Shown: piece by piece, positions 19,789 to 37,034 of the stretch
Position numbering within the stretch: position 1 is the stretch's first letter
How the letters are laid out: each line of letters begins with the position of its first letter
Origin: an uncultured Eggerthellaceae bacterium
GTDB lineage: Bacteria; Actinomycetota; Coriobacteriia; Coriobacteriales; Eggerthellaceae
Assembly: GCA_903789375.1 (NCBI GenBank)
Contig: CAIFEB010000001.1
Span: forward strand, 151,312-215,311
Direction: 5' to 3'
Length of the DNA stretch: 64,000 bases
Made by a program: the position numbers and the translations under genes
The notes under the pieces: model-generated
Database searches by the model: none
What the model was told of the DNA's origin: nothing
Seen by the model: the letters and a program-made list of their open reading frames with translations, nothing else

Positions 19789-22206
19789 ATGACCGAAGCA
19801 CCTGATACGACTGCATCGGACAGTCAAAAAGCCCCCGTCCAGTACCACTGGGGCGAAACCAACGGCAAGCGCTATAAGAGAGGGTCGCGCCTGCCCAAGA
19901 AGACGGGTACCCCCACGCCTGCGGCCGAGACGCCGCATGTCCCTTGGAAGTGGGAAGAGGACGGCTACACCGTCATCCGCGGAACGGCTCGTTCCGCTCC
20001 GGGATGCCACAACGTCTGCGGCATCCTGTCCTATGTGAAGGACGGCAAGCTCGTCAAGGTCGAGGGCGACCCGGAGGACCCGTACAACCAGGGCCGTCTG
20101 TGCAGCCGCTGCCTGTGCATCCCCGACTACGTGTACAGCAAGGACCGTCTGCTCCACCCGATGAAGCGTGCTCGCGAGGACCGCGGCAAGGACAAGTTCG
20201 TCCAGATCACGTGGGACGAGGCGTACGACATCATCGTGCACGAGTTCAAGAAGGTCGCGGACAAGTACGGCGTTGACAAGATCGCCATGTGTCAGGGCAC
20301 TGGCCGCGACATCCACCAGGTCACGCGCCTGAACGCATGCATGGGCTCGCCGAACGAGGGCGTTCCGTACTTCGCCGGCAACTCCTGCTACCTGCCGCGC
20401 ATCGCGTCGATGGCCTGCATGCTGGGCGGCTCGTGCGTCATGGACGCTTCGCAGTTTCTGCCGAAGCGCTACGACGACCCGCGCTACACCGTTCCTGAGT
20501 ACTGCATCATCTGGGGCCATCAGCCCTTCTACAGCAACGCCGACGGTTTCTACGGCCACTGGATCTTGGACCTGATGAAGCGCGGCATGAAGGTCGCTGT
20601 CGTCGACCCGCAGCTGTCCTGGGTGGCCGCGAAGGCCGGCCGCGACTGGCTGCGCGTGCGCCCGGGCGGAGACGGAGCGCTCGCGATGGCCATGCTCAAG
20701 GTCATCTGCGACGAGCAGCTCTACGACAAGGAGTTCTGCGACCTGTGGGTGTACGGCCTTGACGCGTTGTGCGAGCGCGTGAAGGAGTACGACCTCGACG
20801 ACCTGTGCGAGAAGGCCTGGGTTGACAAGGAGGACGTCGTCCGCGTTGCGCGTACGTACGCCACCTCCCACCCGGCGGCCATACAGTGGGGCGTCGCGCT
20901 CGACCAGCAGACCGGCGGCCAGCAAGCTGCTCATGCCATCACCGCCATGTGGTGCATTACCGGCAACCTCGACATCCCCGGCGGCAACGTCATGGCCGAC
21001 GCGTGCTGGGGCATCGAGCAGCCGAACTGGGTCGGCACCTGGGGCTGGGACGAGCTCATGGACGACGAGGAGCAGTCCAAGCGCATCGGCATCGACCGCT
21101 ACCCGATGTTCGCCGTCGGCTTCAAGAACATGTCGTCCAACGCGACGATCGAAGCCTGGCAGCGCGGCGAGATTCCCATCCACGCGGCCTATATCGTGAC
21201 GAACAACTTCCTGGCCACCATGGGCGCTCAGGCCGAAACGCAGCTCGAGTGGTACAAACAGATCGACTTCATCGTCGTCGAGGACCTGTTCATGACCCCG
21301 ACTATGATGGCTCTCGCCGACGTCGTCCTCCCCGCTGCGACGTACGAAGAGCGCGACGGCTTCGGCGGCCTGAACGCGTACCGCATCAGCTGCATCAACA
21401 AGGCGATCGAGCCCGTCGGTGACTCCAAGGCCGACAACACGATCTTCCTTGAGCTGGGCAAGCGCCTGACCGACGCGATCAAGCCGGAAAACGACGACAT
21501 CGCATGGCCGTGGGACAACGTTCAGGAAATGTGGGACTACGCCCTCGAAGACGGCGGCTTCACCTGGGAAGAACTGCGTGACGCCACATGGAAGTACCCG
21601 GAGTTCCAGTACCGCAAGTACGAGAAGGGCCTGCTTCGCCCCGACGGCAAGCCGGGCTTCCGCACCGAGACGGGCCGCGCCGAGGTTTACTCGATGGTCT
21701 TCCATCACACCATGTGGTCGGGCCTCGATCCGCTGCCGAGCTACGTCGAGCCTGTTGAGAGCCCGTATTCGGACCCGGAGGACGCCAAGGAGTACCCGTA
21801 CATCGTGACGTCGGGTGCCCGCGTGCCGCACTTCTTCCACTCCGAGCAGCGTCAGATCGCCAAGCTGCGCGCGCTGCATCCCGACCCGCTCGTCTACATC
21901 CATCCCGATACCGCCGCCAAGGAGGGCATCGAGGAAGGCGATTGGGTCTGGCTGGAGAACAAGCACGGCAAGTGCAAGTACAAGGCCAGCTTCAACGACA
22001 CCTACGATCCGCGCGTCATGCAGGCCGAGCACGGCTGGTGGTTCCCTGAGCGCACAGACGAAGCCGAGGAGAACACCGAAAACGAGATGGACGGACTGTT
22101 CGGCGTGTTCGAGAGCAACATCAACAACCTGGTCCCGTTCGACGCCGGCGTGTCCGGATTCGGTTCGAACTACAAGGCCATGATGTGCAAGATCTACAAG
22201 GCTTAA
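19789..22206 (+). CDS. Molybdopterin-dependent oxidoreductase A (soluble, catechol dehydroxylase/transhydroxylase-like)
   Basis: An 805-residue catalytic subunit of the DMSO-reductase superfamily, closest by eye to pyrogallol transhydroxylase, acetylene hydratase and the soluble gut catechol dehydroxylases. There is no Tat signal, so it should work in the cytoplasm. The N-terminal region has APGCHNVCG (Cys73, Cys77) and GRLCSRCLC (Cys105, 108, 110); the first Cys of the usual CxxCxxxC motif is Ala70. NSCYLPR (Cys200) sits where the Mo ligand is expected. Molybdopterin-binding segments include GNLDIPGGNVMADA and FFHSEQRQIAKLR. GAGGAACGCC gives a ribosome site. It heads an operon with a ferredoxin, a small protein, an amidohydrolase-fold protein and an MFS carrier. 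Reductive dehydroxylation of an imported aromatic is my best guess. Confidence 0.85.
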   Translation: MTEAPDTTASDSQKAPVQYHWGETNGKRYKRGSRLPKKTGTPTPAAETPHVPWKWEEDGYTVIRGTARSAPGCHNVCGILSYVKDGKLVKVEGDPEDPYNQGRLCSRCLCIPDYVYSKDRLLHPMKRAREDRGKDKFVQITWDEAYDIIVHEFKKVADKYGVDKIAMCQGTGRDIHQVTRLNACMGSPNEGVPYFAGNSCYLPRIASMACMLGGSCVMDASQFLPKRYDDPRYTVPEYCIIWGHQPFYSNADGFYGHWILDLMKRGMKVAVVDPQLSWVAAKAGRDWLRVRPGGDGALAMAMLKVICDEQLYDKEFCDLWVYGLDALCERVKEYDLDDLCEKAWVDKEDVVRVARTYATSHPAAIQWGVALDQQTGGQQAAHAITAMWCITGNLDIPGGNVMADACWGIEQPNWVGTWGWDELMDDEEQSKRIGIDRYPMFAVGFKNMSSNATIEAWQRGEIPIHAAYIVTNNFLATMGAQAETQLEWYKQIDFIVVEDLFMTPTMMALADVVLPAATYEERDGFGGLNAYRISCINKAIEPVGDSKADNTIFLELGKRLTDAIKPENDDIAWPWDNVQEMWDYALEDGGFTWEELRDATWKYPEFQYRKYEKGLLRPDGKPGFRTETGRAEVYSMVFHHTMWSGLDPLPSYVEPVESPYSDPEDAKEYPYIVTSGARVPHFFHSEQRQIAKLRALHPDPLVYIHPDTAAKEGIEEGDWVWLENKHGKCKYKASFNDTYDPRVMQAEHGWWFPERTDEAEENTENEMDGLFGVFESNINNLVPFDAGVSGFGSNYKAMMCKIYKA

Positions 22207-22221
22207 GCGAAGGGATGTGCC

Positions 22222-22563
22222 ATGTCTGCAAAGGGAATTTTCGTCGATGCCAACTGGTGCACCGGCTGCGAATCGTGCATCCTCGCCTGCCAGCAGGAGC
22301 ACGGCTATTCGGAGAAGGAATTCGGCGTGAAGGTTTTCAAGCTGGGTCCCCTCCACATCAACGACGAGGAGAAGCACTTCGAGTACGACTTCCTCCCCGC
22401 CTTCACCGAATGGTGCGACCTGTGCGAAGAGCGCACGGCCAAGGGCAAGAAGCCCACGTGTGTGCAGCACTGCCAGGCCCAGTGCCTGGACTGGGGCCCC
22501 GTTGAGGAGCTCGCCAAGAAGGTGACGTCGCGCAAGCAGTACCTCGTTGGCATCAACGAGTAG
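22222..22563 (+). CDS. Ferredoxin-like partner of oxidoreductase A, 2x[4Fe-4S]
   Basis: A 113-residue electron-transfer subunit. Cys13, 16, 19 and 23 form one CxxCxxCxxxC motif and Cys65, 68, 80, 84 and 88 supply the second cluster, a layout seen in the small subunits of DMSO-reductase-family enzymes reduced to their first two clusters. It starts 15 bases after the oxidoreductase stop and would form a soluble heterodimer with it. There is no membrane anchor gene in the operon, so electrons must come from a soluble donor. The paralogue in operon B at 35583 has the same cysteine plan. Confidence 0.88.
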   Translation: MSAKGIFVDANWCTGCESCILACQQEHGYSEKEFGVKVFKLGPLHINDEEKHFEYDFLPAFTEWCDLCEERTAKGKKPTCVQHCQAQCLDWGPVEELAKKVTSRKQYLVGINE

Positions 22564-22655
22564 CTTGGCGCGTTGCGCCCCTCATGCCAGAGCGTGAAGG
22601 GCTTTTGCTTCGGTGATAACGATCCGAGGCGAAGAGAGAGAAAGGAAGAGGAACT

Positions 22656-22832
22656 ATGGGGATGGATGTTGTTGAGCGTCTTGCCAACATCGATGTGCGT
22701 GCACCGCGCGAGTTCTCTCACACGGTGGAGCCCTGGCAGCGCAAGCAGGGCCGCATCGACTGGCGCGTCCGCTGCACCGAGAACATGGAGAAGATGAAGC
22801 GCCACGAGGTGAACGACATCTACATCAAGTAG
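22656..22832 (+). CDS. Small conserved-looking operon protein, 58 residues
   Basis: An ATG at 22656 with a strong purine-rich ribosome site (AAAGGAAGAGG) opens a 58-residue frame that ends at 22832 and fits tightly between the ferredoxin and the amidohydrolase-fold gene. The protein is charged and soluble, with the central motif HTVEPWQRKQGRIDWRVRC and a single Cys. I recognise no family. Codon use matches its neighbours, with a strong preference for G or C in third positions, which supports real coding. It could be a chaperone or a subunit of either neighbouring enzyme. There is no equivalent in operon B. Confidence 0.75.
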   Translation: MGMDVVERLANIDVRAPREFSHTVEPWQRKQGRIDWRVRCTENMEKMKRHEVNDIYIK

Positions 22833-22997
22833 CGCAGCATCACGCGCACCCGGCGGGGACGTGAGTCTTTTGAGGGGTTTCGCGCCCCCGCCCCTTTTCT
22901 GCACTCAGTTTCAATCCATTACGGCTTGTCCCGAGCGTTGCCGGGCGTATACCGACAACGATCTGCTCGGTCGAAATATCGACAAAGGAGACAATCA

Positions 22998-24056
22998 ATG
23001 GCAAGCAAATCCAAGGTCATCGACGTCAACATGCACTTCCTGCCGACGAACCTGTTCACCGATGAGGAGGTGCTCAACGGATTCCTGTACTCCGCGCCGA
23101 TCACGTTCGGCATGAAGGCGTACCTGGGCGAGACCCCGGACGGCTCCAAGAAGCAGGTCATCCTCGAGTACCCCGAGGGCAAGCAGATTCTGAACTACGT
23201 CGACGGCGACTACACGCTGGAGACGAAGATCCGCGCCATGGACGAGGCGGGCGTCGATATCGCGATGCTGCGTATGCCGGTGTGGCAGGAGTGGCTGCCG
23301 CTCGACATGTGCAAGATTGTGAACACCCAGGCCGCCGAGATGTGCAAGCGTTCCGAGGGCCGCTTGGTCGCGAACGCCGTTGTCCCGCCGTACGGCCGCA
23401 AGGAGGACGTCGACGAGCTGAAGCGCTGCATCGAAGAGCTCGGCATGGTGGGCGTCCAGCTGGCCTGCTGCTACGGCGATCGCTTCCTCGACGACCCGCT
23501 GTTCGACCCGTACCTGAAGGTCATCAACGAGATGAACATCCCCGCGGTCATCCACCATACGCCGGGCCAGAACGCCTTCACGAACTTCTCCGACTACACG
23601 GTGCTCCGTCGTGAGCTGGGCCGCGTCCATGCGCAGGCCGCCGCTGTGGGCCGCGAGCTGTACTCCGGCATCTTCGCCAAGTACCCGAACCTGAAGTTCA
23701 TCCACACCATGTTCGGTGGCAACTTCTTCGCGCTGCAGGAGATTCTGGCTCCGCATGCCGCCAAGAAGAAGGAGGCCATGAACCGTCTGACCGCCGACAT
23801 CTCGCGCGAGGACTACGACGAGTTCCTGAAGAACAACATCTACTTCGACATGACCCACCCGATGAGCTGGGGCACCGCTCAGCTCGAGTGCGCTGCGAAG
23901 GTCTGCGGCGCCGACCACCTGCTGATGGGCTCTTCGTTCCCGGTGTTCTACGAGTGGATGGCGCGCTCGGTCGCTTCCATCGACGCAATGAACGTCAGCG
24001 ACGAGGACAAGGCGCTCATGAAGGGCGGCAACGCTCAGCGCCTGTTCAACCTGTAA
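22998..24056 (+). CDS. Amidohydrolase-2 (ACMSD/decarboxylase-fold) protein with altered metal site
   Basis: A 352-residue TIM-barrel protein of the amidohydrolase family 2, which includes aminocarboxymuconate-semialdehyde decarboxylase and hydroxybenzoate decarboxylases. The start at 22998 has AAAGGAG 8 bases upstream. The fold is evident from IDVNMHFLP (residues 8-16), VIHHTPGQ (184-191), FIHTMFGGNFF (235-244) and the C-terminal MGSSFPV with NAQRLFNL. Two expected metal ligands are changed: the first of HxH or ExH is Asn11, and the Asp of the usual GSDxP is Ser313. It may therefore be a metal-free or differently coordinated lyase or hydratase. In the operon it would act before or after oxidoreductase A on the same substrate. 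Confidence 0.82.
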   Translation: MASKSKVIDVNMHFLPTNLFTDEEVLNGFLYSAPITFGMKAYLGETPDGSKKQVILEYPEGKQILNYVDGDYTLETKIRAMDEAGVDIAMLRMPVWQEWLPLDMCKIVNTQAAEMCKRSEGRLVANAVVPPYGRKEDVDELKRCIEELGMVGVQLACCYGDRFLDDPLFDPYLKVINEMNIPAVIHHTPGQNAFTNFSDYTVLRRELGRVHAQAAAVGRELYSGIFAKYPNLKFIHTMFGGNFFALQEILAPHAAKKKEAMNRLTADISREDYDEFLKNNIYFDMTHPMSWGTAQLECAAKVCGADHLLMGSSFPVFYEWMARSVASIDAMNVSDEDKALMKGGNAQRLFNL

Positions 24057-24119
24057 GTTCAACCCCGACCGAGGCCGTTCGGCCTCAAAGGCCCCGTGGG
24101 AATAAACCGCGCGGTCTTT

Positions 24120-24154
24120 GGAGGGGGCTTCAGCCGAAGCGCGAAGCCCCCTCC
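24120..24154. repeat. Strong intercistronic hairpin
   Basis: GGAGGGGGCTTC at 24120-24131 is perfectly complementary to 24143-24154. A smaller perfect hairpin (GAGGCCG/CGGCCTC) sits at 24071-24086. Neither has a T tract, so they may shape RNA stability or partial termination between the enzyme genes and the carrier gene of operon A. Confidence 0.6.
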
Positions 24155-24277
24155 CTGGGTGCGCCGCGGCGTCCGCATGCGCTTGGGGAAGCGCAACACA
24201 ACTACATGCGCTCGCCGCATCGCACCCGTTCTTCGTGCATCGACGGCAACTGCCGTCACGAGGAGGGGAAATAATCT

Positions 24278-25642
24278 ATGAGCAATCCCGCTACAGCGGC
24301 GGCTTCCGCCCCGCAGAAGCAGGCCGAAGAGACCCCGAGCTACGCATGGGCGTGCTTGGTCGTATCGCTTCTGGCCGCCGTGTCCATCGTGTTCTCGTGG
24401 ATGTGGCTGCCGGGCATCACGTTCCCGACGTTCAAGGCCTGGCTGGCTGCGAACAACCCGTTCTTCCAGGGCGCTGGTGCCGCTAACTTCGCCCTTCTGT
24501 CCAACGTCATGGGCCTTGTGCCTATCGGCGCTCTGATCATGGCCCTTCCGACCACGGTCATCGTGCGCAAGTGGGGCGCCAAGATAGGCACGCTGCTCGG
24601 TCTTGCGTTCTCGATCATCGGCTCGGCGCTGTCCGCCGCGTTTGTGGGCTCCAACTTCTACGTGTTCCTTGCCGGCCGTTTCATCCTCGGCCTCGGCCTT
24701 GCGACCACCGTCGTGTCCGGCCCGACCTGCATCTCGATCTGGTTCCCGGATTCCACGCGCGGCCGCGCCATGGCCATCTGGTCCACGTGGGCCCCGATCG
24801 GCATCTTCCTGTCGAACCTGGTCAACGACAGCGTGTACAAGGCTGTCGGCTCTTCGATGAGCACCCTGCAGTGGGTGTGGTGCATCCTGATCGTCGTGTG
24901 CGCCATCATCTTCGCCGTGGTGTTCCGCGCCCCGCGTGAGAACGAGCGCTCGCAGGTGTCCCCTGTGCGCAAGCCCCTCAAGGAGGTTCTGTACCTGTTC
25001 AAGAACCGCCAGCTGTGGTGCCTGATCTTCATGTTCGTGATCTTCAATTACATGAACTACGCCTTCAGCCAGTACCTGAAGACCTGGCTGCAGATCCCGG
25101 TCGCCAACGGCGGCTTCGGTTGGGACGCTGCGACTGCAGGTCTCTGGGGCGGCCTGATCGTCGCCTGCGGCGCTCTGGCTCCTATCGGCGGCATCATCCT
25201 GGACAAGACCCCGCGCGACAAGAAGTACCTGTGCGTCGTCGCCGGCATCATCGGTCTGACCGTGTGCTCGGCTCTGTCCTTCCGTGCATCGTTCTTCATC
25301 CCGTATGTGATCTTCTTCTGCATCGGCAACATGATGCTCAACGCGTGCTGCCGCCCGCTCATCCCGACGTTCGTGTTCAAGGGCGGCCAGACCGCCGTCG
25401 CCTTCGGCCTCTCGCTTCTGACCCTGGGCCAGTACATCGGCCAGATGGTGACGAGCTACGCCTGCGAGCCGTTCAACGCCACGCTGACGGCTGCGACCAC
25501 CGGCACCGGCATGGTTGACCCGGCGCTCATCTTCTGGGCCCTGGTCCCCATCGGAGTCGTCGGCTGCCTGCTGTCCTTCGGCGTCAAGCCTTCCAAGAAG
25601 GCTGCAAAGCCCGCCGAGGGTGCGCAGAAGTCGGAGCACTAA
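24278..25642 (+). CDS. MFS transporter of operon A
   Basis: A 454-residue major facilitator carrier with about twelve membrane segments, an N-terminal polar leader of 20 residues, the loop IVRKWGAKIGTLLGLAFSI (motif A position), and a central loop APRENERSQVSPVRKPLKE. It is preceded by GAGGAGGGG 8 bases from ATG. Placed last in operon A after the catabolic enzymes, it most likely imports the operon's substrate or exchanges substrate for product. The combination of a soluble Mo enzyme with an MFS carrier fits cytoplasmic catabolism of an aromatic or related compound. The family resembles nitrate/organic-anion type carriers, but the substrate is not readable. Confidence 0.87.
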   Translation: MSNPATAAASAPQKQAEETPSYAWACLVVSLLAAVSIVFSWMWLPGITFPTFKAWLAANNPFFQGAGAANFALLSNVMGLVPIGALIMALPTTVIVRKWGAKIGTLLGLAFSIIGSALSAAFVGSNFYVFLAGRFILGLGLATTVVSGPTCISIWFPDSTRGRAMAIWSTWAPIGIFLSNLVNDSVYKAVGSSMSTLQWVWCILIVVCAIIFAVVFRAPRENERSQVSPVRKPLKEVLYLFKNRQLWCLIFMFVIFNYMNYAFSQYLKTWLQIPVANGGFGWDAATAGLWGGLIVACGALAPIGGIILDKTPRDKKYLCVVAGIIGLTVCSALSFRASFFIPYVIFFCIGNMMLNACCRPLIPTFVFKGGQTAVAFGLSLLTLGQYIGQMVTSYACEPFNATLTAATTGTGMVDPALIFWALVPIGVVGCLLSFGVKPSKKAAKPAEGAQKSEH

Positions 25643-25768: not shown

Positions 25769-26236
25769 ATGGCCCATGCGAACGATACCGTGCAGGGAAC
25801 GAGCGCGGGGACGACCGTGGCCACCGCGCAGAGCCCGGCGGCTGCTGGCGCCCCAGCGGCAGACGTAGCTGACGCTCAGGCGCCTGCCGGCACGATAACG
25901 CGAGAGCACACCGCCAGCACGGCAGAGCCATACGACGCATCCGGCGAGATGTCCGGTGATGGGCGTCCGGACGCCGTATCTGGCGCGACTGTGACGGTGA
26001 CAGGCGAAGACACGCAGCCGTCCGGAAACCACACGCCCGCCGGATCCGACCCCGAGCCTGAAGACGGCTCCAACGACGCAGCTGCCGTCTCCGACGACAT
26101 CTCCGAGGCGTCCGATGTGCCCGACACGATCACGGGCGCGACGCCGGGCGTTGCCGCCGCCTGTCGCGATTACGGTTTCACCTCCCCCGACACCGTCGAC
26201 CTGCTGTTGGGCGTGAAACCGCCCGGAGAGCGCTAA
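25769..26236 (+). CDS. Hypothetical acidic low-complexity protein
   Basis: A 155-residue protein rich in Ala, Thr, Asp, Ser and Pro with no predicted membrane segment or signal peptide, likely disordered for residues 1-125. The last 30 residues (ending CRDYGFTSPDTVDLLLGVKP) look more ordered and contain the only Cys. AAAGGAG precedes the ATG by 9 bases. Because a terminator ends immediately upstream, expression must come from read-through of operon A or from a promoter within the hairpin region. I do not recognise a family. It is followed by its own terminator, which supports it being a real gene. Confidence 0.6.
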   Translation: MAHANDTVQGTSAGTTVATAQSPAAAGAPAADVADAQAPAGTITREHTASTAEPYDASGEMSGDGRPDAVSGATVTVTGEDTQPSGNHTPAGSDPEPEDGSNDAAAVSDDISEASDVPDTITGATPGVAAACRDYGFTSPDTVDLLLGVKPPGER

Positions 26237-26651: not shown

Positions 26652-28178
26652 ATGGTCAACACGAGGCGCACTTCCGCTTCGACACTCTCTTCGTTTGACA
26701 TTCTGATCATCGGCGGTTACGCGCTCTTCTGCGCGTGGCTGCTCATCACGTTCTTCTGGCTGTTCTGCGACTTCCCCACCGGAAGCACCCCGGGCGGGCG
26801 CGATTTCACGCAGCTGTGGCTGTTCGTCGGATTCGCCTGTGGATATTGCATCCAGCATCTGGCCGGCAGGCGCTCCGAATCGTTCAACGTGTTCAACCGT
26901 CGCACGGTCATCCCCGTTGCCATCGCCAACGCGCTCCTTCCCGTGAGCGCCCTTCTGTTCTACGCTTCCGTGCCATTGCCTTTCCCGCTGCTGTGCGTGT
27001 TCGGGTTCGTCACCGGCGTGGCAGGCTCGTTCGCCAACATCGCCTGGCTCGACATCTTCAGCCGCACGGGCCGCACCCAGTACGACCTGTACTGCGCGCT
27101 CGGCTTCATCGGCGGCGGCATCCTGTTCGCGCTCGGCGCGGCGGCGCCCGGCGTCATGCAGCCCGTCTTCGCGCTCGTGTGCGCCACGCTCAGCTTCATC
27201 CTGACGTTCTTCATCTCACGCCGCACGAAGGACGTCGACTTCCCCACCGTCGACGACGAGGAGAAGGAAAGCACCTGGCGGTTCGCACGCGAGATTGAGC
27301 CGTCGTTCTTCATGTTCGGCGTCGTGTTCGCCTTCACGTTCGTGTACCTGTTCAACACGGGCCGCAACGCCGTGCTGCTCGGCCTCATGAGCGCCATCGC
27401 GGGCGGCGTCATCATCGCGCTGCTGTCGCTCAACGGTATCACGCGGCGCACGAACATCACCACCTACCAGCGCATCCTTGTGGCGCTCACCGTGGGGTCG
27501 TGCGTGCTTATGCCGCTCGTGCCAACGGGCGCGCAGATCGTCCTCTGCTGCGTCATCGTGGCGGCAAACGCCATCCTGCTCGTGATCAACGAGTCGTTCG
27601 TCCTGCGCAAATGCTCGCTCGACCGGACGATTCCGGTGTTTCGCCAGGCGCCGCTGCGGCTTCTGTCCATCCCGTTCGGGTTCGCCTGCGGCTGGGCGTG
27701 TGCGGCTATCATCTCGGTCTTCTTCGGCACCCACGCGGGCGCGTTCATGTACATGCGGCTGTTCTGCGCGCTGCTTCTGGTCGTCGTCATCATGATCTTC
27801 CTGCCGGTCGACGAGCACCACGCCGCCGACGGCACGATCTTCGACGCCGCCGAGCAGGCTGCTGCGCCCAACGTAATCGTCGAGGTGACCACCACCGAAA
27901 GCGATCTGCTGAAGGCCCGCTGCCAGGCCGTGACGAAGCTCTACCAGCTGTCCCCGCGTGAAGAGGACGTGCTCGAGTACCTGGCGCGCGGCCGCAACGC
28001 CGCCTACATCCAGGAGAAGCTCACCATCTCGCCGCACACGGTGAAGAGCCACATCTACAACATCTACCGCAAGCTGGACATCCACTCGCAGCAGAAGCTC
28101 ATGGACTTCGTGGAGACGTTCCCGCTCGACGACCAAGCCGCCCGCAGGATCGCCGAGGAGAAACAGGAGAAGCGCTAG
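26652..28178 (+). CDS. LuxR-type regulator with multi-spanning membrane domain
   Basis: A 508-residue regulator. Residues about 15-400 are a chain of hydrophobic segments resembling an MFS-like or 7TM sensor, and the C-terminal 60 or so residues are a LuxR/FixJ-type helix-turn-helix: LSPREEDVLEYLARGRNAAY, then the recognition part TISPHTVKSHIYNIYRKLDI. This architecture is typical of Coriobacteriia, where such genes lie beside molybdopterin oxidoreductases, as here. GGGGAG lies 8 bases before the ATG. It sits between operons A and B, so control of one or both is likely but unproven. It would sense a compound in the membrane or periplasm and bind DNA at the cell edge. Confidence 0.9.
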   Translation: MVNTRRTSASTLSSFDILIIGGYALFCAWLLITFFWLFCDFPTGSTPGGRDFTQLWLFVGFACGYCIQHLAGRRSESFNVFNRRTVIPVAIANALLPVSALLFYASVPLPFPLLCVFGFVTGVAGSFANIAWLDIFSRTGRTQYDLYCALGFIGGGILFALGAAAPGVMQPVFALVCATLSFILTFFISRRTKDVDFPTVDDEEKESTWRFAREIEPSFFMFGVVFAFTFVYLFNTGRNAVLLGLMSAIAGGVIIALLSLNGITRRTNITTYQRILVALTVGSCVLMPLVPTGAQIVLCCVIVAANAILLVINESFVLRKCSLDRTIPVFRQAPLRLLSIPFGFACGWACAAIISVFFGTHAGAFMYMRLFCALLLVVVIMIFLPVDEHHAADGTIFDAAEQAAAPNVIVEVTTTESDLLKARCQAVTKLYQLSPREEDVLEYLARGRNAAYIQEKLTISPHTVKSHIYNIYRKLDIHSQQKLMDFVETFPLDDQAARRIAEEKQEKR

Positions 28179-28503: not shown

Positions 28504-29625
28504 TTAGCTGCTGACGACTTCCTTGCCGGCCGTGACCTCCTGCCACTTGGCGAGCACCGCCTCGCGGTTGGGACCGAACTTCGTCGTGTCCTCCTTCATG
28601 AGCTGCGACGTGTCGAAGGTCGCCTCGACGCCCTTGACGTCGGGGATGCACATGAGGATCGTGCTCTTCTTGTCGATGCTTGCCAGGTACGCCATGTTCT
28701 CATCGTTGCTGAACAGCCATTCCACGAACAGCTTCGCATCGTCCACATCGTCGGCGTTCTTGAACACCGCCACGCCGTCGGGCATGTACGGCATGCCCTC
28801 GGTCGGGTACACGAGCGACAGCTCGCCGCTCTTGAGCAGCTCGTCGAGCGTGCCGTCGATGTAGGTGATACCGATGCCGGCCTCACCCTGGCTCACGCGC
28901 GTAGACGGGTCGGAGCCGCGCTTGGTGTAGTACGGGATGTTCTCGTTGAGCTGGGAGAAGTACTGCCAGCCAGCGTCCTCGCCCATGTACTGGAGCAGCG
29001 CGTCGACCGCGGCGTAGTTGGTGCCCGAAACGGCCGGCGTGGACATGACGATCTCGTCCTTGTAGGCCGCGTTTGTAAGGTCGGCCCAGCTCTTCGGCGC
29101 CTCGGCGCCGATCTCGTCGAGGATGTCGTTGTTCACGATGAATCCGACGACCGTGGCGCCCTTGCTGAACCAGTAGTTGTCCGGATCCTTGAACGTGTCG
29201 GCGAAACGCGACGCCGCCTCGAAGTTGACCTGTTCGAGCAGTCCGGAGTCCTTGGCGGACATGAACGAGTCGATGCCGCCGCCGAACCACAAGTCGGCTG
29301 CGGGCGTGCCGCCCTCGGCCTTGAGCTTGGAGAGCGCCTCGCCCGAGGACATGGACACGAACTCGACCTCGCACCCGACGTCCTGCGTGAACTTCTCGAA
29401 GAGCTTCTTGTACGACTCGCTCGTGCAGATGACCTTGAGCGTCTTGCCCGACGTCGACTTCAGGTCCGTCTTGTTAGCCGTCTGCGATGCCGACGAAGCA
29501 CTGCTGGCCGCGCTGCTGCTCGAACCCGAGCCGGAGCAGCCGGTCACTGCGAGCGCCGACAGCGCGAGCGCGGCGGAAGCCGAGCCCACGACGAACGAGC
29601 GGCGCGAAAGCCCCTTCTGCGTCAT
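28504..29625 (-). CDS. ABC transporter substrate-binding lipoprotein
   Basis: A 373-residue periplasmic-type binding protein of the iron(III)/thiamine/aminoethylphosphonate-like family (one Fbp-type domain). The N-terminus has a Tat-like twin arginine (SRRSFV, Arg8-Arg9), a hydrophobic stretch and a lipobox VTGC with Cys30 as the lipid anchor, followed by a Ser-rich linker. The ligand is not evident; segments such as DNYWFSKGATVVGFIVNND resemble binding proteins for ferric iron or small organics. The ATG directly follows the stop codon of the ATPase gene, so the two are translationally linked. It is the last gene of the importer operon. Confidence 0.9.
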   Translation of the reverse strand: MTQKGLSRRSFVVGSASAALALSALAVTGCSGSGSSSSAASSASSASQTANKTDLKSTSGKTLKVICTSESYKKLFEKFTQDVGCEVEFVSMSSGEALSKLKAEGGTPAADLWFGGGIDSFMSAKDSGLLEQVNFEAASRFADTFKDPDNYWFSKGATVVGFIVNNDILDEIGAEAPKSWADLTNAAYKDEIVMSTPAVSGTNYAAVDALLQYMGEDAGWQYFSQLNENIPYYTKRGSDPSTRVSQGEAGIGITYIDGTLDELLKSGELSLVYPTEGMPYMPDGVAVFKNADDVDDAKLFVEWLFSNDENMAYLASIDKKSTILMCIPDVKGVEATFDTSQLMKEDTTKFGPNREAVLAKWQEVTAGKEVVSS

Positions 29626-30582
29626 CTAATCATCTTCCTTCCATGTCAGAGGGCGCGTTATGTCGAAACGCACCCTCTCCCCTTCAGACAACACGCGCGA
29701 ACGGTCCGTCCGAATGCGTACCGTCTGCGCGTCGACATCGATAAAATACTCCCATTGCGCGCCGAGAAACACCGCCTGGGAGACCGTGCCCGCGTACGCG
29801 CCGTCATCGGCAATGCTCGCGCCCTCCTTGCGGAAGCGCACGCGCGAGCCGTCGGGCGCCGCAAGCTCGTTGACCGTGCCCAAAAACCGCGCGCAGTACG
29901 CATCGCGCGGATGGTCGTACACGTCGAGCGGCGCGCCGTCCTGGACGACCTTGCCCTCGTGCACGAGCGCGATGCGGTCTCCGATGGCCATCGCCTCCTC
30001 CTGGTCGTGCGTGACGAACAGCATGGCGATATCGAACCGCCGCTGGACGGCCTTGATCTCCTCGCGCATGCGCACGCGCAGGCCGGCGTCCAGGTTGGAC
30101 AGCGGCTCGTCTAAAAGCAGCGCCTTGGGCTTGAGCACGAGCGCGCGGGCGACCGCCACACGCTGCTGCTGGCCGCCGGAGAGCTCGGCGGGATACGCGT
30201 TCTCGCGCCCCTCCATGCCCACGGTAGCAAGCATCACGCGGGCGCGTTCCGTGCGCTCCGCGCGTGCGAGTCCTTGGAACCGCAGGCCGAAGGCGACGTT
30301 GTCGAGCACCGTCATGTGCGGGAACAGCGCGTACGACTGGAAGACCGTGGCCACCGGGCGCAGCTCAGGCGGGCGGCGTCCCATATCCTCGCCATCGATG
30401 AGCACCTTGCCCGCATCTGGCAGATGGTAGCCGCCTACCGCGCGCAGCGCCGTGGTCTTGCCGCAGCCCGAGGGGCCGAGCAGGCACACGAGCTCGCCTT
30501 TGTCCACCGTGAGGTTGAAGCCGTCAAGCACGGCGCCTTCGCCGTAGCCGACCTGCAGATCGCGCAGATCAATCATCGCCAT
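29626..30582 (-). CDS. ABC transporter ATP-binding protein
   Basis: A 318-residue ATPase of the Fbp/Pot type. Walker A is GPSGCGKTT (about residues 36-44), the signature is LSGGQQQRVAVARAL, Walker B is ALLLDEPLSNLD and the switch histidine lies in LFVTHDQEEAM. A C-terminal extension of about 90 residues is the TOBE-like regulatory domain usual in this class. It overlaps the end of the permease gene by 14 bases. It powers the import of the ligand caught by the lipoprotein at 28504. Confidence 0.94.
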   Translation of the reverse strand: MAMIDLRDLQVGYGEGAVLDGFNLTVDKGELVCLLGPSGCGKTTALRAVGGYHLPDAGKVLIDGEDMGRRPPELRPVATVFQSYALFPHMTVLDNVAFGLRFQGLARAERTERARVMLATVGMEGRENAYPAELSGGQQQRVAVARALVLKPKALLLDEPLSNLDAGLRVRMREEIKAVQRRFDIAMLFVTHDQEEAMAIGDRIALVHEGKVVQDGAPLDVYDHPRDAYCARFLGTVNELAAPDGSRVRFRKEGASIADDGAYAGTVSQAVFLGAQWEYFIDVDAQTVRIRTDRSRVLSEGERVRFDITRPLTWKEDD

Positions 30583-32260
30583 GCGCGCGTCGCCTCCGTT
30601 TCAGAAAGAGAAAGCCCAGAACGGCGTCCACCGCGAGCGTGATCGCCACGATGACGACCGAGGTCGCCGCCGCCTGGCCGTACTTGCCGCTCGACAGCGC
30701 GTCGAACAGCTCGAAGATCGCCGTCTTGTTGCTGGGCGTTATCAGGAACAGCACCGCGCCGTAGGCCACCATCGCCGACGTGAAGGCGTTCATGAAGCTG
30801 ACGGCGGCGGCACGGCGCACGCTGGGAACCGCAATGCGCAGCGCGCTCGCGAACTTCGTCGCGCCCACATCGCGCGCCGCTTCCTCAAGGTGCGGGTCGA
30901 GCTGGGCGATCTCGTTGGAGAACGCCTGCTGCGAGATGGCGAGCTCCTTGAACGCGAGCACCAGCACGATGATCACGCCCGTGCCCGTGAGCTTGAGCGG
31001 CGCGGCGTTGAACGCGAGGATGTAGCCGAGTCCCAGGCACGTGCCCGGCAGCATGTAGGGCATGGTCACGGCGAAGCCGAGCAGCGCCTGCGCCTTGCGC
31101 GCAGGGCCGCGGCCGCGTCTTCCCTGCTCCTGCAGATAGGCGCACAAGAATCCGAGTACCGTGGCAACGGCGGCCGCGAGCAGGGCGAACCCGACACTGC
31201 GGGCAAGCGGCGTGGCCTGGTACTCAACCAGGTGGTCATAGTTGGCCGTGGTGAAGCTCGCCTTCCAGCTGATGCCCGCCGTAAGCGAGGCGCGCACGAT
31301 GGTTACGTACTGAAGGATCATGAACGCGATGAACGCGAAGCACACGATGCCGCACACGATGCCGAGCACGCCGCGCAGCCGCATGGGGGCGCTGCGGCGG
31401 TCGCCGAGCATCTCGAACGCCGAGGTGGCCGTTCCCGCCACGCGCTTGCGTGACCGCGCGATGAGCACGGCGTAGCCCGCATACACGATGATGGCGATGC
31501 CGCACAAAAGCACGCCGAGCACGGCCGACGTCGCCAGGTCGGAATAGCCCACGACCTGCTCGTAGATGGCGGTGGAGATGGTTTCGAAGCTGCCGCCGAT
31601 GACGATCGGCGTACCGTAGTCGGCAAGCGAGCGGATGAACGTGAGAAGCAGGCACGCGCCGACGGACGGCCACGTGAGCGGAAGTACGACACGCCTCACG
31701 ACCTGCGACGGTGAGGCTCCTACGTCGCGCGCGGCGTCGAGCACAGCCGGGTCGATGTTTCTGATGGTGCTGAGCAAGAGCAGCACGTTGATGGCGCAGA
31801 AGAACACCGACTGCATGACAACGACCCCGACCGGCCCATAGGGGCTGATCGACAGGCCGAGCAGCTCGTGGGTGATGAGACCGCGCCGCCCGAACAGCTC
31901 GACATAGGCGAGCGACGACACGAATGGCGGCGAGATGATGCTCGCGAACACGAGCGCGAGCACGACACCGCGCAGCTTCGACGACGAGAACGCCACGCGC
32001 AGCGAGATGGCGAGCGCGAGCGCCGTCGAGATGACGGCCGTCGCCACGCCAGCGGCGATGCTGTTCCAGACGATCTGCTGGTTGTTCGCGAGGACGCGGC
32101 CAAAGCTGCCGCCTATGCTTTTCGAGAGCAGCGACAGAATAGGGTCGACCGAGAACAGGAGCACGAGTCCGACGGTTGCAGCGCCGATGGCGACGCATGC
32201 CACGGTCGATCCGCGATGGCGGATGAGCGCTCTCCTTGTTGTAAGGTCCTGTGTCTTCAT
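30569..32260 (-). CDS. ABC transporter permease (fused two-domain, FbpB-like)
   Basis: A 563-residue membrane protein in which two permease halves are joined, each with an EAA loop: DAARDVGASPSQVVRRVVLP in the first half and EEAARDVGATKFASALRIAV in the second. Such fusions are usual for ferric-iron and thiamine-type importers. The start at 32260 (MKTQDLTTRRALIRH) has GGAAG upstream; the frame to 32365 adds an unlikely Cys-rich leader. It is the first gene of the operon, so the promoter lies in 32261-32560, an AT-rich stretch. Confidence 0.92.
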   Translation of the reverse strand: MKTQDLTTRRALIRHRGSTVACVAIGAATVGLVLLFSVDPILSLLSKSIGGSFGRVLANNQQIVWNSIAAGVATAVISTALALAISLRVAFSSSKLRGVVLALVFASIISPPFVSSLAYVELFGRRGLITHELLGLSISPYGPVGVVVMQSVFFCAINVLLLLSTIRNIDPAVLDAARDVGASPSQVVRRVVLPLTWPSVGACLLLTFIRSLADYGTPIVIGGSFETISTAIYEQVVGYSDLATSAVLGVLLCGIAIIVYAGYAVLIARSRKRVAGTATSAFEMLGDRRSAPMRLRGVLGIVCGIVCFAFIAFMILQYVTIVRASLTAGISWKASFTTANYDHLVEYQATPLARSVGFALLAAAVATVLGFLCAYLQEQGRRGRGPARKAQALLGFAVTMPYMLPGTCLGLGYILAFNAAPLKLTGTGVIIVLVLAFKELAISQQAFSNEIAQLDPHLEEAARDVGATKFASALRIAVPSVRRAAAVSFMNAFTSAMVAYGAVLFLITPSNKTAIFELFDALSSGKYGQAAATSVVIVAITLAVDAVLGFLFLKRRRRAHGDD

Positions 32261-33210
32261 GCACGCTTCCACTCTGGTCGTAAGGCGCACAACTCCCCGC
32301 CCGTGTCCCAAGGGAACGGGATTTGCACCGTTTATCTCACACCTGGAGCAGAACGTGCGCGACATGCGCGCACTGCAGGCAATGATGTTTTGATATGTGT
32401 TTTATTCACGGCGAACCGCTGCACGCACGTCGAGAGACAGCGACATACTTGCTTGAGCAGTCCGCGCACAGAGCTCGATCGAGGCCGCAGAAACCTTCGA
32501 GAGCATGAATAATCATACGGTATTAAGGCGCTATATCAAGCTCTGGTAAAATTCTTTTTCGTAATAATTCGACATGCTCCGCCCTCGTCCTCGTCGACCG
32601 TGCATCAGAGGCGCGTACGCGACCAGTTGCCGCACGATGCCGTCGGCCTTGTAAACGACGGACGACCCGACCACCTGCGCCGTCGCCATAGGACGCAGGA
32701 CGACCGCCGTTCGCGCCGTCGCCATCACCAGGCGATCGCGCATCAGGTGAAGCGTGATCATCGCTCGCACCAGCGGCTGGCGTGCCGCCGTCGCTCGCGC
32801 AGCGCCCTTCGAACGCCTTTGTGCGAGAGCTCCAATCGGACTGCGCACGACCGCCGTTCACCTGCCTCAGACTGCCGCAGGCGCCCGCGAAATCAGCCGC
32901 TCCGCGCTCCCGAAGAACTAATCTTCTGATTAGTTCTTCGCGGATAACTTACCGTCTCCCCTGTTCACAACCTCATACCGCTGGACTGATTGCCGTTCGC
33001 CTGCGGATTGCATACCCATCTCGTGATTTCTCATACTCCGCCCGGTGGTCATATGAACGCAAGCCCGATGGGGACGGGCTCGTTCGAGGCCGTTACTCGA
33101 ACATCCCCCGGAATCCGGGGAGGCCACCTGGGTTCCGCAGCGCGCACGGACGAATGCGCGCAGCGGGCCGTTCGAAGCGCGAAGCGGTCCGAACAGAGAG
33201 AGGAGTTGCG
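32261..33210. other. Long control region upstream of operon B
   Basis: These 950 bases separate the divergent importer and operon B. The stretch 32390-32570 is AT-rich and probably holds the importer promoter. From 32580 to 32910 the DNA is GC-rich and carries only unconvincing frames; one on the minus strand at 32531-32848 ending SNYYEKEFYQSLI was considered and not accepted. A perfect 13-bp palindrome lies at 32921-32950, and the last 250 bases must hold the operon B promoter and a long leader. Confidence 0.55.
32921..32950. promoter_or_regulatory. Perfect 13-bp palindrome upstream of operon B
   Basis: CGAAGAACTAATC at 32921-32933 is followed by TTCT and its exact complement GATTAGTTCTTCG at 32938-32950. 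There is no T tract, so an operator or activator site is more likely than a terminator. It is 260 bases upstream of the operon B start codon. Confidence 0.65.
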
Positions 33211-35583
33211 ATGGGGGAACAAGTGCTGGAAAGCAAAAATCGCGATGACATCGGCACTTCTAAGGAGGAGAACCAGTTTAACTTCGGCGCCGGCGAGCGC
33301 CCCGAGATGCAGGATTGGAAGCATCCCGGTGAATGGCAGTACATGGAAGACGGCATGCTCGTCACCCGTACGAGCGTCTGGTCGGCGCCAGGATGCCACG
33401 AGGGCTGCGGCGTTCTGGTGTACTCCGATCCGGAGACCGGCCGCTTCATCAAGGTTGAGGGCGACCCCGACGACCCGTACAACCGCGGCGCGCTCTGCCC
33501 GCGCTGCCTGGCGTTCAAGCAGGTCGAGTTCCATCCCGACCGCATTCTGCACCCGATGAAGCGCATCGGCGAGCGCGGCGAGAACAAGTGGCAACGCATC
33601 ACCTGGGATGAGGCGCTCGAGACGTGCTACAAGGAGTTCCGCCGCATCTCCATGACGTACGGCGGCGAGTCGATCCACTGCCTGCGCGGCACCGCCCGCG
33701 ACAACCAGTGGCAGGTCGGCCGTCTGGCGAACACCTTCAACTCGCCCAACGAGTACGGCTTCCTGTCCGGCACGGCGTGCTACCTCCCGCGTCTGTCGCT
33801 CATGATCATGACCTACGGCGGCATGCTCATCGCCGACTTCTCGCAGTTCTCCGCACTGCGTTACAACGACCCCGAGTGGCAGTGCCCCGAATGCACGATC
33901 GTCTGGGGCTGCAACCCCACGATCTCCAACCCTGACTTCTTCATGGGCCACTGGGTCACCGATGCCATGAAGCTGGGCTGCAAGCTGATCTCGGTCGAGC
34001 CGCGCGTCACCTGGCTGGCCGCTCACGCCGACATCCACCTGATGCTGCGCCCGGGCACCGACACCGCTCTCGCCCTCGGCATGGCCAAGGTCATCATCGA
34101 CGAGGACCTATACGACCATGACTTCGTCGAGCGTTGGTGCTACGGCTTCGACGAGTTCGCGGCCCGCGCCCAGGAGCTCTCGCTCGACGAGGTCGAGAAG
34201 ATGACCTGGGTCCCGAAGGACAAGATCATCGCCGCCGCCCGCCTGTTCGCCAATTCGCACCCGGCGAACATCGTCTGGGGCCTGGCCGTCGACATGCAGT
34301 CGCAGGGCACCCCGTGCGCTGCCGCCATCGCGGCTTTGTGGACCATCACCGGCAACCTCGACATCCCCGGCGGCATGTGCTACACCGCAGCGCCTATGGG
34401 CGTCGACCAGCCTTCCGCCGGTGCGTGGGGCTACTACGACCTGCTGTCCGAAGAGCAGCAGAAGAAGCGCGTCGGCTGGCACGAGTACCCGATGTACCGC
34501 TACGGCCTGACGCAGGCCATGCCGGACATGTGCCTCGAGGAGATGGAGCAGGGCAAGGTCAAGGGCGTGTGGATCCAGACGTCCAACGGCATCGCCTGCA
34601 TGAGCTGCGAGACCGAGCGCTGGTACAAGGCCATGAAGAAGCCTGAGTTCATCGCCGCGTGCGACATCTTCATGACCCCAACCATCCAGTCGAGCGCCGA
34701 CATCGTCATGCCGGTCCAGACCTGGGCTGAGAAGCACTCCGTCCGCGCCCACTACTACTTCCTGTCCGCCATCACCGGCGGCTGCGCCACCGAGGGCGAG
34801 GCGAAGTCCGACTGCGAGATCAACCGCGAGCTCGCCCAGTACTTCGACCACGACGAGGAGTTCAAGAAGGCCATCGGCCGCCCGCTCGACCAGAACGCTT
34901 GGCCGTGGCAGACCGAGGACGAGGTATACGACGAGATCGTCAAGCCGTCCGGCTTCACCTTCCACGAGCTCATGGAGAACGGCCCGGTGTACCAGAAGTA
35001 CATCTACAAGAAGTACGAGAAGGGCCTCATGCGCCCCGACGGCAAGCCCGGCTTCAACACGCCGACCGGCCGCGTCGAGCTGTACTCCACGCTGTTCCAG
35101 AACTTCGGCTACGATCCGCTGCCCTACATCGAGGAGCCGGGCATCGGCCCCGTCTCCACGCCGGATCTGTACGAGAAGTACCCGCTGATCATGATCACGG
35201 GCGCCCGCACTACGTCGTTCTTCCACTCCGAGCACCGTCAGATTCCGTACCTGCGTCAGCTCACGCCTGATCCGTGGGTGCAGATCAACCCGAAGACGGC
35301 CGCTGAGCACAACATCAACGAGGGCGACTGGGTCTGGATCGAGAATCATCGCGGCCGCTGCCGCCAGCGCGCCCGCGTCACCTACGAGGTGGGCGAGCAC
35401 GAGATCGCCGCTCAGCACGGTTGGTGGTTCCCCGAGCAGGACGGCGCCGAGCCGAACCTGTACGGCTTCCGCCAGTCCAACATCAACCAGCTTCTGGCCA
35501 ACAAGCCGGGCGCGACCGGATTCGGCGCTGACCTGAAGTGCACCCTGTGCAAGATCTATCGCTGCAGCGAGGAGGACCTGTAA
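33211..35583 (+). CDS. Molybdopterin-dependent oxidoreductase B (soluble, catechol dehydroxylase/transhydroxylase-like)
   Basis: A 790-residue paralogue of oxidoreductase A, also lacking a Tat signal and therefore cytoplasmic. The start at 33211 has GAGAGGAG 7 bases before it; the open frame continues upstream to 32782 without support. The cluster region has APGCHEGCG (Cys62, Cys66) and GALCPRCL (Cys96, Cys99), again with Ala (59) at the first cysteine position. TACYLPR (Cys190) is the candidate Mo ligand. Shared blocks with A include GNLDIPGG, EKGLMRPDGKPGFNTPTGRVE and the C-terminal TLCKIYR. It would reduce or rearrange a hydroxylated aromatic-like substrate with electrons from the ferredoxin encoded next. 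The exact substrate is unknown. Confidence 0.86.
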   Translation: MGEQVLESKNRDDIGTSKEENQFNFGAGERPEMQDWKHPGEWQYMEDGMLVTRTSVWSAPGCHEGCGVLVYSDPETGRFIKVEGDPDDPYNRGALCPRCLAFKQVEFHPDRILHPMKRIGERGENKWQRITWDEALETCYKEFRRISMTYGGESIHCLRGTARDNQWQVGRLANTFNSPNEYGFLSGTACYLPRLSLMIMTYGGMLIADFSQFSALRYNDPEWQCPECTIVWGCNPTISNPDFFMGHWVTDAMKLGCKLISVEPRVTWLAAHADIHLMLRPGTDTALALGMAKVIIDEDLYDHDFVERWCYGFDEFAARAQELSLDEVEKMTWVPKDKIIAAARLFANSHPANIVWGLAVDMQSQGTPCAAAIAALWTITGNLDIPGGMCYTAAPMGVDQPSAGAWGYYDLLSEEQQKKRVGWHEYPMYRYGLTQAMPDMCLEEMEQGKVKGVWIQTSNGIACMSCETERWYKAMKKPEFIAACDIFMTPTIQSSADIVMPVQTWAEKHSVRAHYYFLSAITGGCATEGEAKSDCEINRELAQYFDHDEEFKKAIGRPLDQNAWPWQTEDEVYDEIVKPSGFTFHELMENGPVYQKYIYKKYEKGLMRPDGKPGFNTPTGRVELYSTLFQNFGYDPLPYIEEPGIGPVSTPDLYEKYPLIMITGARTTSFFHSEHRQIPYLRQLTPDPWVQINPKTAAEHNINEGDWVWIENHRGRCRQRARVTYEVGEHEIAAQHGWWFPEQDGAEPNLYGFRQSNINQLLANKPGATGFGADLKCTLCKIYRCSEEDL

Positions 35584-35942
35584 TGACGCGCAATGGCATT
35601 CTTGTTGATTATCAGTACTGCACGGGTTGCTACTCGTGCGAGGTAGCGTGCCAGGCCGAGCACGAGCTGCCGCTCGAGCAATGGGGCGTGAAGGTCATGC
35701 AGAACGGCCCGTGGCCGATCAAGGACGAGAACGGCGAGCCGACCGACCGCTACGTGTACGACTTCATCCCGGCGTTCACCAAGATCTGCGATCTGTGCGC
35801 TGACCGCCTGGAGAAGGGCAAGAAGCCCTCGTGCGTGTTCCACTGCCAGGCCAAGTGCATGAAGTTCGGCCCGGTGGACGAGCTCGTAGGCGACCTGGCC
35901 GACAAGCCGCAGCAGTACCTGTGGGTGCCGCCCTGCGCGTAA
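35583..35942 (+). CDS. Ferredoxin-like partner of oxidoreductase B, 2x[4Fe-4S]
   Basis: A 119-residue electron carrier with Cys13, 16, 19 and 23 in the first motif and Cys69, 72, 84, 88 and 92 in the second, the same plan as the protein at 22222. Its ATG overlaps the stop of the oxidoreductase gene (TAATG), so the two are translationally coupled and probably made in equal amounts. Small insertions around residues 47-57 distinguish it from the operon A partner, consistent with each ferredoxin serving its own enzyme. Confidence 0.9.
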   Translation: MTRNGILVDYQYCTGCYSCEVACQAEHELPLEQWGVKVMQNGPWPIKDENGEPTDRYVYDFIPAFTKICDLCADRLEKGKKPSCVFHCQAKCMKFGPVDELVGDLADKPQQYLWVPPCA

Positions 35943-36010: not shown

Positions 36011-36021
36011 AGAACCGCTCG

Positions 36022-36058
36022 GAAGAAGGCCGCTTTCCGCAACGGAGCGGCCTTCTTC
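36022..36058 (+). terminator. Probable terminator after operon B ferredoxin
   Basis: GAAGAAGGCCGCT at 36022-36034 is perfectly complementary to 36046-36058. Only a short T-poor tail follows, so read-through into the next two genes is possible. Confidence 0.55.
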
Positions 36059-36209
36059 GTCTCGGCGGAAACCTTGCGTGCGGATGCGGCAAGCGCGGGC
36101 TTGCATGCCGTGAAGCCTTTGAGCCCGGTTCGCCGCGACCGCACCTTACGACTAAGAACCGTAAAGACTTGAACCACCCTACGTACACCCGAGAGAAGGA
36201 GCGTGCACC

Positions 36210-36788
36210 ATGGACCTCGCAACGCTGAAATCGCAGATAGACGCCTCGCCGCTGTCGACGCGGAGCACCTACCAGCGGATGTATCTGTACGTGTCGCCCG
36301 GCGGCGCTATCGACGACGCCTACGCCGAGCTGCTCGACGCGTCCACGTCGTACCGCGAGTTCTTCAACCGCATCGTCACCGACGCCGAGGACCGCATGTC
36401 GCTTCTGTGGGCGGAGGCTGCGCGCCTGTCCCACCACGACTGGCTCGGCTACTTCACGCCCGACCTCTCCATCGAGAAGATTCGCATGAAGACCGACGGC
36501 GTGCCCATCCAGTTCGGCACGGGCGTGATGCTCGCGCCCACGGGCAGCCGCGACAACATAGCCAACCTGCACGTTTTCAACCAGGGAGCGTTCAACGCCC
36601 AGGCGGCCGATTTCGTGACGTCGATCGGCGGCACGTTCCGCGTGCTCGACTACGAGTTCTGCGGCATCTACGGCGTGTACAAGAGCCGCGGCAACGTCAT
36701 CCTTGAAACCTGGGAAGCTGAGCACGAACCCCAGTACAAGCCCGACAAGAACGATACGTGCGCGGTTCCGCTCAAGGCCACCGCGTAG
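36210..36788 (+). CDS. Hypothetical protein, 192 residues
   Basis: A soluble-looking protein with no signal peptide or membrane segment and a single Cys-containing patch (YEFCGIYGVYKSRGN). AGAAGGAGCG precedes the ATG. Clean codon usage and the following tight gene support it as real. I do not recognise the family. Its sequence is balanced and probably folded, with acidic helices near residues 30-65 and a beta-rich half after 85. It lies downstream of operon B behind a moderate hairpin and may be an accessory gene of it. Confidence 0.7.
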   Translation: MDLATLKSQIDASPLSTRSTYQRMYLYVSPGGAIDDAYAELLDASTSYREFFNRIVTDAEDRMSLLWAEAARLSHHDWLGYFTPDLSIEKIRMKTDGVPIQFGTGVMLAPTGSRDNIANLHVFNQGAFNAQAADFVTSIGGTFRVLDYEFCGIYGVYKSRGNVILETWEAEHEPQYKPDKNDTCAVPLKATA

Positions 36789-36818
36789 GCGACACGCAAC
36801 CGAACGGAGGAAACGATC

Positions 36819-37034
36819 ATGGCGCACTCCCCTTCTCGCGCCGCGCGAACCGCAGCTGAAACGACCCAACGCGAGGCGGACACAGGCGAGAGCGAGCATT
36901 CAGGCGACCGCGGTGACCGGACGAGCCGCAACAGCGCCGTCGACGGGCGCGGCTTCACGCTCGGCATCGTGCTTCTGGCCGTCGTGGTGGTGCTGAGCAC
37001 CGTCATGACCGTCGTGCAGGGCGGCGGGTTCTAA
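36819..37034 (+). CDS. Small single-span membrane protein, 71 residues
   Basis: Residues 1-45 are polar and charged, and residues 47-66 form one hydrophobic helix (FTLGIVLLAVVVVLSTVMTV) that ends nearly at the C-terminus. This is a tail-anchor-like layout with the polar part probably in the cytoplasm. GGAGG lies 8 bases before ATG 36819. It begins 30 bases after the 192-residue gene, so the two are one unit, and a strong hairpin follows at 37048. Function is unknown; it could tether the preceding protein or the operon B enzyme to the membrane. Confidence 0.65.
   Translation: MAHSPSRAARTAAETTQREADTGESEHSGDRGDRTSRNSAVDGRGFTLGIVLLAVVVVLSTVMTVVQGGGF

Follow-up and report, generated by a model that had tools for sequence, protein, structure and literature searches.

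Ellagic acid comes from berries and nuts. Its metabolism by gut Coriobacteriia was ascribed in December 2025 to a gene cluster, eam, which was found by RNA sequencing of Gordonibacter sp. 28C exposed to ellagic acid; it comprises the dehydroxylases Eadh1 and Eadh2 and the decarboxylase Eah, together with MFS carriers and a LuxR regulator (PMC12771579). According to the same paper, Eah converts ellagic acid to urolithin M5, Eadh1 takes off the C4 hydroxyl and Eadh2 the C10 hydroxyl, Eadh3 takes urolithin C on to isourolithin A, and with the Eah product as substrate Eadh1 is the most effective catalyst by a wide margin; the enzyme activities and the induction by ellagic acid were demonstrated by others in named strains, and eam-type clusters in uncultivated Coriobacteriia were already reported (PMC12771579). 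The DNA analysed here, referred to as the window, is a 64,000-nucleotide stretch from an uncultured Eggerthellaceae bacterium (assembly GCA_903789375.1, contig CAIFEB010000001.1, positions 151,312 to 215,311 of the forward strand), in which two operons, A and B, each encoding a dehydroxylase and a ferredoxin, lie on either side of a membrane LuxR-type regulator. This region is very probably an eam cluster in its own right, with two dehydroxylases and an Eah that would make urolithin C under shared LuxR control, and with an Eadh3 elsewhere in the genome that would give isourolithin A.

Orthologs were collected in a survey of 138 Eggerthellaceae genomes, in which named contigs were scanned to identify several of the carriers. 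Dehydroxylase A was 88-91% identical, and dehydroxylase B 87-88% identical, to the sole such genes in Gordonibacter sp. 28C (89% and 88%, respectively), G. pamelaeae and Ellagibacter isourolithinifaciens, with the next-best matches to A and B in Gordonibacter sp. 28C at only ~50%; the B ortholog of Adlercreutzia sp. ZJ176 was at 91%. Orthologs of the Eah-type amidohydrolase (68-83% identity) occupied the same position in 19 of the 138 genomes, the window's own counted, with 79% identity to the copy in Gordonibacter sp. 28C and 82-83% to those of Ellagibacter and S26M_St_58. The ortholog carriers include Gordonibacter sp. 28C, G. pamelaeae 7-10-1-b and Ellagibacter isourolithinifaciens DSM 104140, and the gene order is common to the window and these named ellagic-acid metabolisers. 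Around most Eah orthologs there runs a common row of A (82-91%), ferredoxin, 58-amino-acid protein, amidohydrolase, MFS carrier, small protein, LuxR regulator, B (83-92%), ferredoxin and 192-amino-acid protein, interrupted by contig ends in several assemblies. Just one of the six Amidohydro_2 genes of Gordonibacter sp. 28C, the Eah ortholog, has a dehydroxylase within 20 kb, and 4Fe-4S proteins, an MFS carrier and a LuxR regulator are colocalised with the window's enzymes, as they are in eam. The region is laid out as follows, operon A (19789-25642) including the molybdopterin enzyme, ferredoxin, 58-amino-acid reading frame, amidohydrolase and MFS carrier:

19789..22206, + strand: dehydroxylase A (Pfam domains; single Gordonibacter sp. 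28C ortholog at 89%; clade support 100/100)
22222..22563, + strand: ferredoxin subunit of A, two-cluster 4Fe-4S (66-68% to Gordonibacter copies; cysteine plan)
22656..22832, + strand: 58-amino-acid protein with the core GRIDW (17 sequences in the same position)
22998..24056, + strand: Amidohydro_2 enzyme, the Eah ortholog (Pfam PF04909; orthology)
24278..25642, + strand: MFS carrier, presumed importer or exporter of ellagic acid or urolithins (Pfam MFS_1)
25769..26236, + strand: cluster-specific 155-amino-acid small protein with ApbE-type motifs and a conserved C-terminal cap
26652..28178, + strand: membrane LuxR-type regulator (C-terminal GerE, 10 hydropathy peaks)
28504..32365, - strand: three-gene ABC transporter operon (solute-binding lipoprotein, ATPase and fused two-domain permease; Pfam/NCBIfam)
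33211..35583, + strand: dehydroxylase B (ortholog at 88% in Gordonibacter sp. 28C; clade support 100/100)
35583..35942, + strand: ferredoxin subunit of B, two-cluster 4Fe-4S (76-87% identity with its counterparts in other clusters)
36210..36788, + strand: 192-amino-acid protein tied to module B (in 18 of the 19 genomes with B)

Across the survey, A (at least 79% identity), B (at least 87%) and Eah (at least 68%) were each found in 19 genomes and all three together in 16, the exceptions being mostly fragmented or incomplete drafts. In a tree of the large subunits, A and B fell into separate clades with 100/100 support, each holding all Gordonibacter and Ellagibacter copies; the two are paralogs (43% identity), as an earlier note on this DNA had described them, without being sisters. 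That note, made from the letters of the window, proposed that the two modules serve different, undescribed aromatic substrates and regarded orthology above about 70% to an enzyme whose substrate is known as a refutation. A chance neighbourhood of two such modules would agree with the low identity and separate clades of A and B, with the possession of a separate ferredoxin by each, and with a second cluster in Adlercreutzia sp. ZJ176 in which A and Eah stand without B. It is nevertheless highly improbable, given that A and B are orthologs of two dehydroxylases in one ellagic-acid cluster, that 16 genomes carry both of them along with Eah, and that they have in common a promoter dyad (described below) which, even with up to 3 mismatches allowed, is missing from all of the 21 compared promoters that belong to other dehydroxylases. 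Because A, B and Eah travel together in this manner, A and B are taken as parts of one pathway, and because both exceed 70% to orthologs in a cluster that matches eam, the window appears to hold a known system, of which the modules are two halves, and not two unknown ones.

In the pathway proposed for this eam cluster, the MFS carrier would take up ellagic acid, and the Eah-type amidohydrolase would open and decarboxylate one lactone to yield urolithin M5. The C4 hydroxyl would be removed by a cytosolic molybdenum bis-molybdopterin guanine dinucleotide (bis-MGD) dehydroxylase, probably A acting as Eadh1 with its own two-cluster ferredoxin, and the C10 hydroxyl by a second enzyme of this type, probably B acting as Eadh2 with its own ferredoxin, giving urolithin C. 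An Eadh3 ortholog encoded on another contig would then turn urolithin C into isourolithin A. We infer from the orthology that the host does as its named relatives do. The identity of A with Eadh1 is quite likely, because A and Eah belong to a single operon, Eadh1 is much the most effective on what Eah makes, and the second cluster of ZJ176 has Eah and A without B. An assignment of A and B taken directly from the literature was set aside, as none is stated in the published text available (PMC12771579); the one given here is an inference. The second cluster of Adlercreutzia sp. ZJ176 (L050:9575-14934; A at 82%) has a divergent regulator and possibly belongs to a variant substrate or to a urolithin M6 producer.

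The Eadh3 ortholog lies outside the cluster at G000:C17:13892-16282 (L002:6890-9295), with 83-84% identity and a clade support of 100/100, and its neighbours match those of the Ellagibacter gene (ferredoxin 79%, MFS carrier 72%). E. isourolithinifaciens has one extra dehydroxylase inside its cluster (L078:11850-14294), as is stated for Eadh3 in PMC12771579. Eadh3 orthologs of at least 80% identity were absent from Gordonibacter sp. 28C, G. pamelaeae 7-10-1-b and genome G068, which fits the published stop at urolithin C; a Gordonibacter paralog with only 61-63% identity was not counted as Eadh3. Since the window's genome holds an Eadh3 ortholog, the predicted end product of the host is isourolithin A, and no xanthine-oxidase-family enzyme (Ucdh-like) for a further step was found in that genome.

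Both large subunits have the Pfam domains Molybdopterin, Molydop_binding and Molybdop_Fe4S4, a twin-arginine signal was looked for in both and found in neither, and the two ferredoxins have an identical cysteine plan (Cx2Cx2Cx3C...Cx2Cx11Cx3Cx3C). These are features of the Gordonibacter-type catechol dehydroxylases, which are bis-MGD enzymes nearest to acetylene hydratase, without a signal peptide and with a 4Fe-4S partner, and the earlier note had correctly named the family as the soluble catechol dehydroxylases of gut Coriobacteriia and had described the signal-less enzymes and their ferredoxins accurately. The genes that it placed in operons A and B, and the LuxR gene with its membrane domain, were all open and at the positions given, with the start of the amidohydrolase corrected to the ATG at 22998 (not the TTG at 22926) and that of dehydroxylase B to 33211; the start of the B ferredoxin coincides with the last base of the dehydroxylase B stop codon (35583). 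Its gene list left out the 155-amino-acid gene (25769-26236) and the ABC transporter operon (28504-32365). The host draft genome (2.43 Mb) has its relatives among the Eggerthellaceae and is the sole member of its genus in the searched set. It encodes about ten further dehydroxylases of the A/B class, and a dehydroxylase of this class at L003:2856-4086 (G000:C2) is broken into several frames.

The Eah ortholog departs from the metal site of the Amidohydro_2/ACMSD type, with NxH (NMH) in place of HxH and serine (GSSFP) in place of the catalytic aspartate in 12 of 12 members. The Eah of Gordonibacter sp. 28C is reported as active nonetheless (PMC12771579). The structure model of Eah was of low confidence (predicted local distance difference test, pLDDT, 66.6) and was kept out of claims about the metal site.

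The regulator has 10 membrane-like segments, counted in a rough hydropathy scan, followed by a GerE helix-turn-helix at residues 432-486, and thus the N-terminal membrane segments and C-terminal DNA-binding domain of LuxR regulators with 10-12 transmembrane helices. It would sense ellagic acid or an early product and switch on both operons via a common operator. A candidate for this operator is a dyad with the consensus TCATACC-N3-GGTATGA. When up to 3 mismatches are allowed, it occurs in 15 of 22 promoters of A, against 1 of 44 shuffles, and in 18 of 19 promoters of B, against 0 of 38; as the promoters share common descent, these counts look more independent than they are. The 3-base spacing stood out in the promoter comparison, and when a matrix trained on B promoters alone was applied to the 22 A promoters, 13 of them had a site that outscored every shuffle; looser variants of the dyad were seen in other dehydroxylase promoters. 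A position weight matrix made without the window's sequences predicted two sites in the window:

32971..32992, + strand: dyad in front of operon B, a predicted binding site of the regulator (CCTCATACCGCTGGACTGATTG; matrix score 23.3)
19530..19551, + strand: dyad in front of operon A, a predicted binding site of the regulator (CCTAAGACCGATAGTCTGAGCT; same matrix, score 15.1, weak consensus match)

Across the 64 kb these were the only sites to exceed a score of 8 (next best 7.4), and a composite of the two found no other match in the genome at 2 or fewer mismatches, its own two matches not being independent. This shared dyad upstream of both operons supports control by a single LuxR. A perfect dyad (GAACTAATCTTCTGATTAGTTC) upstream of B at ~32916 was rejected as the operator, as it is not among the dyads of other B promoters; a further perfect dyad (TCTCATGCTGACAGCATGAGAC) lies upstream of another dehydroxylase (L008:10901-10922). 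There may thus be a family of related operators, with a separate version of the dyad recognised by each membrane LuxR. No operator motif for the Eggerthella membrane LuxRs was reported in the main text of PMC9734109 as searched, and wider paper searches gave nothing relevant.

Several observations weigh against the identification with eam. It rests on strain names, uniqueness and composition and not on published Eadh or Eah sequences or figures; the available text of PMC12771579 is silent on which dehydroxylase adjoins Eah; the Eadh3 ortholog is on another contig with a divergent LuxR nearby (~38%); the operator upstream of A is weak in the window; and the LuxR is only 41-49% identical to that at the same place in most clusters, so that the inducer could differ. 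The last of these, with the lower conservation of regulator and carriers than of enzymes and the presence of an extra ABC transporter inside the cluster, would also suit a derivative of eam in which Eah and the dehydroxylases have been retuned by drift to a related substrate, either a bis-lactone or a compound derived from gallate. Such a drift is very unlikely, however, as the identity of the enzymes to the ellagic-acid set is 87-91%, far beyond the 72% threshold that separated characterised dehydroxylases by substrate (PMC11585353), and Eah is 82-83% identical to the Ellagibacter and S26M_St_58 copies. Orthology, synteny, co-occurrence and the shared promoter dyad all argue for an ellagic-acid cluster. 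As to the transporters, the MFS carrier is 48-74% identical to the MFS carrier of nearly all clusters, with its position unchanged. The ABC transporter operon between LuxR and module B is found at that place only in the window's genome among those compared, the LuxR-to-B gap being 0.3-0.9 kb in ZJ176, S26M_St_58, RGIG4359 and G068, and it was set aside as a pathway component since it is missing at that spot in these relatives.

The ellagic acid system itself is known; the prediction of isourolithin A, the candidate operator and three conserved small genes, which are not discussed in the main text of PMC12771579, are what this analysis adds, all of it as prediction. The 155-amino-acid protein encoded by one of them is a low-complexity chain with two ApbE-type motifs, DAVSGAT and DTITGAT. 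The ApbE flavinylation motif as defined in PMC12052999, D-x-x-[ST]-G-A-[ST], was present in 15 of 15 homologs at 1-4 copies each, with 25 copies observed in 14 homologs relative to 0.055 expected by shuffling, and N-terminal CxxCxxC knuckles are added in some homologs. Its C-terminal 39 residues occurred once per genome in 17 of the 138 genomes, all of them cluster-bearing. Judged by eye, no signal peptide is evident in the protein and the single ApbE of the genome also appears to be without one, which would allow attachment of flavin mononucleotide (FMN) in the cytosol. It is a reasonable guess that the protein is a flavin-bearing cytosolic electron carrier, the motif alone not showing modification. 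More tentatively, and on balance doubtfully, the homologs may be small soluble flavinylated proteins, modified by a signal-less cytosolic ApbE, that give electrons to the dehydroxylase ferredoxins as the cluster's own carrier. Published multi-flavinylated proteins are mostly extracytosolic and made of folded FMN-bind domains (PMC11334425); if the proposal is true, these would be a new minimal cytosolic kind of flavinylated carrier, restricted to ellagic acid metabolism.

The 58-amino-acid protein, which the earlier note had rightly listed as a gene, is kept in the same position in 17 clusters with 70% mean column identity and an almost invariant GRIDW core. Of the two genes that it described as of no recognised function after module B, that for the 192-amino-acid protein is conserved, and for the other (71 amino acids) no homolog was found in the clusters examined. 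The 192-amino-acid protein was modelled with confidence (pLDDT 91.6), belongs to no Pfam family and had no match in the PDB at E <= 0.001, so that no fold is recognised for it. Distant paralogs of it (~25-35%) occur elsewhere in Gordonibacter. In Adlercreutzia murintestinalis dehydroxylase B is split across two frames (L054:3518-5882) and the adjacent 192-amino-acid gene has an internal stop.

The analysis suggests a likely function for a formerly unassigned enzyme pair, adds an uncultured genus to the predicted carriers of the ellagic acid pathway, and makes a specific product, isourolithin A rather than urolithin C, available to test. The type of urolithin made in the gut varies between individuals, and the presence of eah, eadh1 and eadh2 together with eadh3 anywhere in the genome may be a better predictor of it than the presence of the cluster by itself. 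The candidate operator provides a starting point for understanding how two operons could be controlled by one membrane LuxR. The motif-bearing small protein points to a possible electron donor of the cytosolic dehydroxylases.

Acetylene hydratase catalyses hydration and is not known to have a ferredoxin partner of the type seen here. It is the nearest solved structure by sequence to the dehydroxylases of the window (PDB 2e7z), but is much more distant. Like DadR, HcdR and CadR of Eggerthella lenta (PMC9734109), the regulator has a multi-helix membrane domain, a C-terminal LuxR domain and a dehydroxylase neighbour, whereas here two separate operons appear to answer to one regulator. Compared with the eam clusters of Gordonibacter sp. 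28C, G. pamelaeae and G. urolithinfaciens (PMC12771579), the window has the same dehydroxylases, Eah, ferredoxins, MFS carrier and LuxR in the same order, but adds the ABC transporter operon before module B, lacks the block that Gordonibacter has between MFS and LuxR, and belongs to a genome in which an Eadh3 module is present elsewhere. With the eam cluster of Ellagibacter isourolithinifaciens DSM 104140 it has all core genes in common, the Eadh3 module being inside the cluster there and on a separate contig (C17) here.

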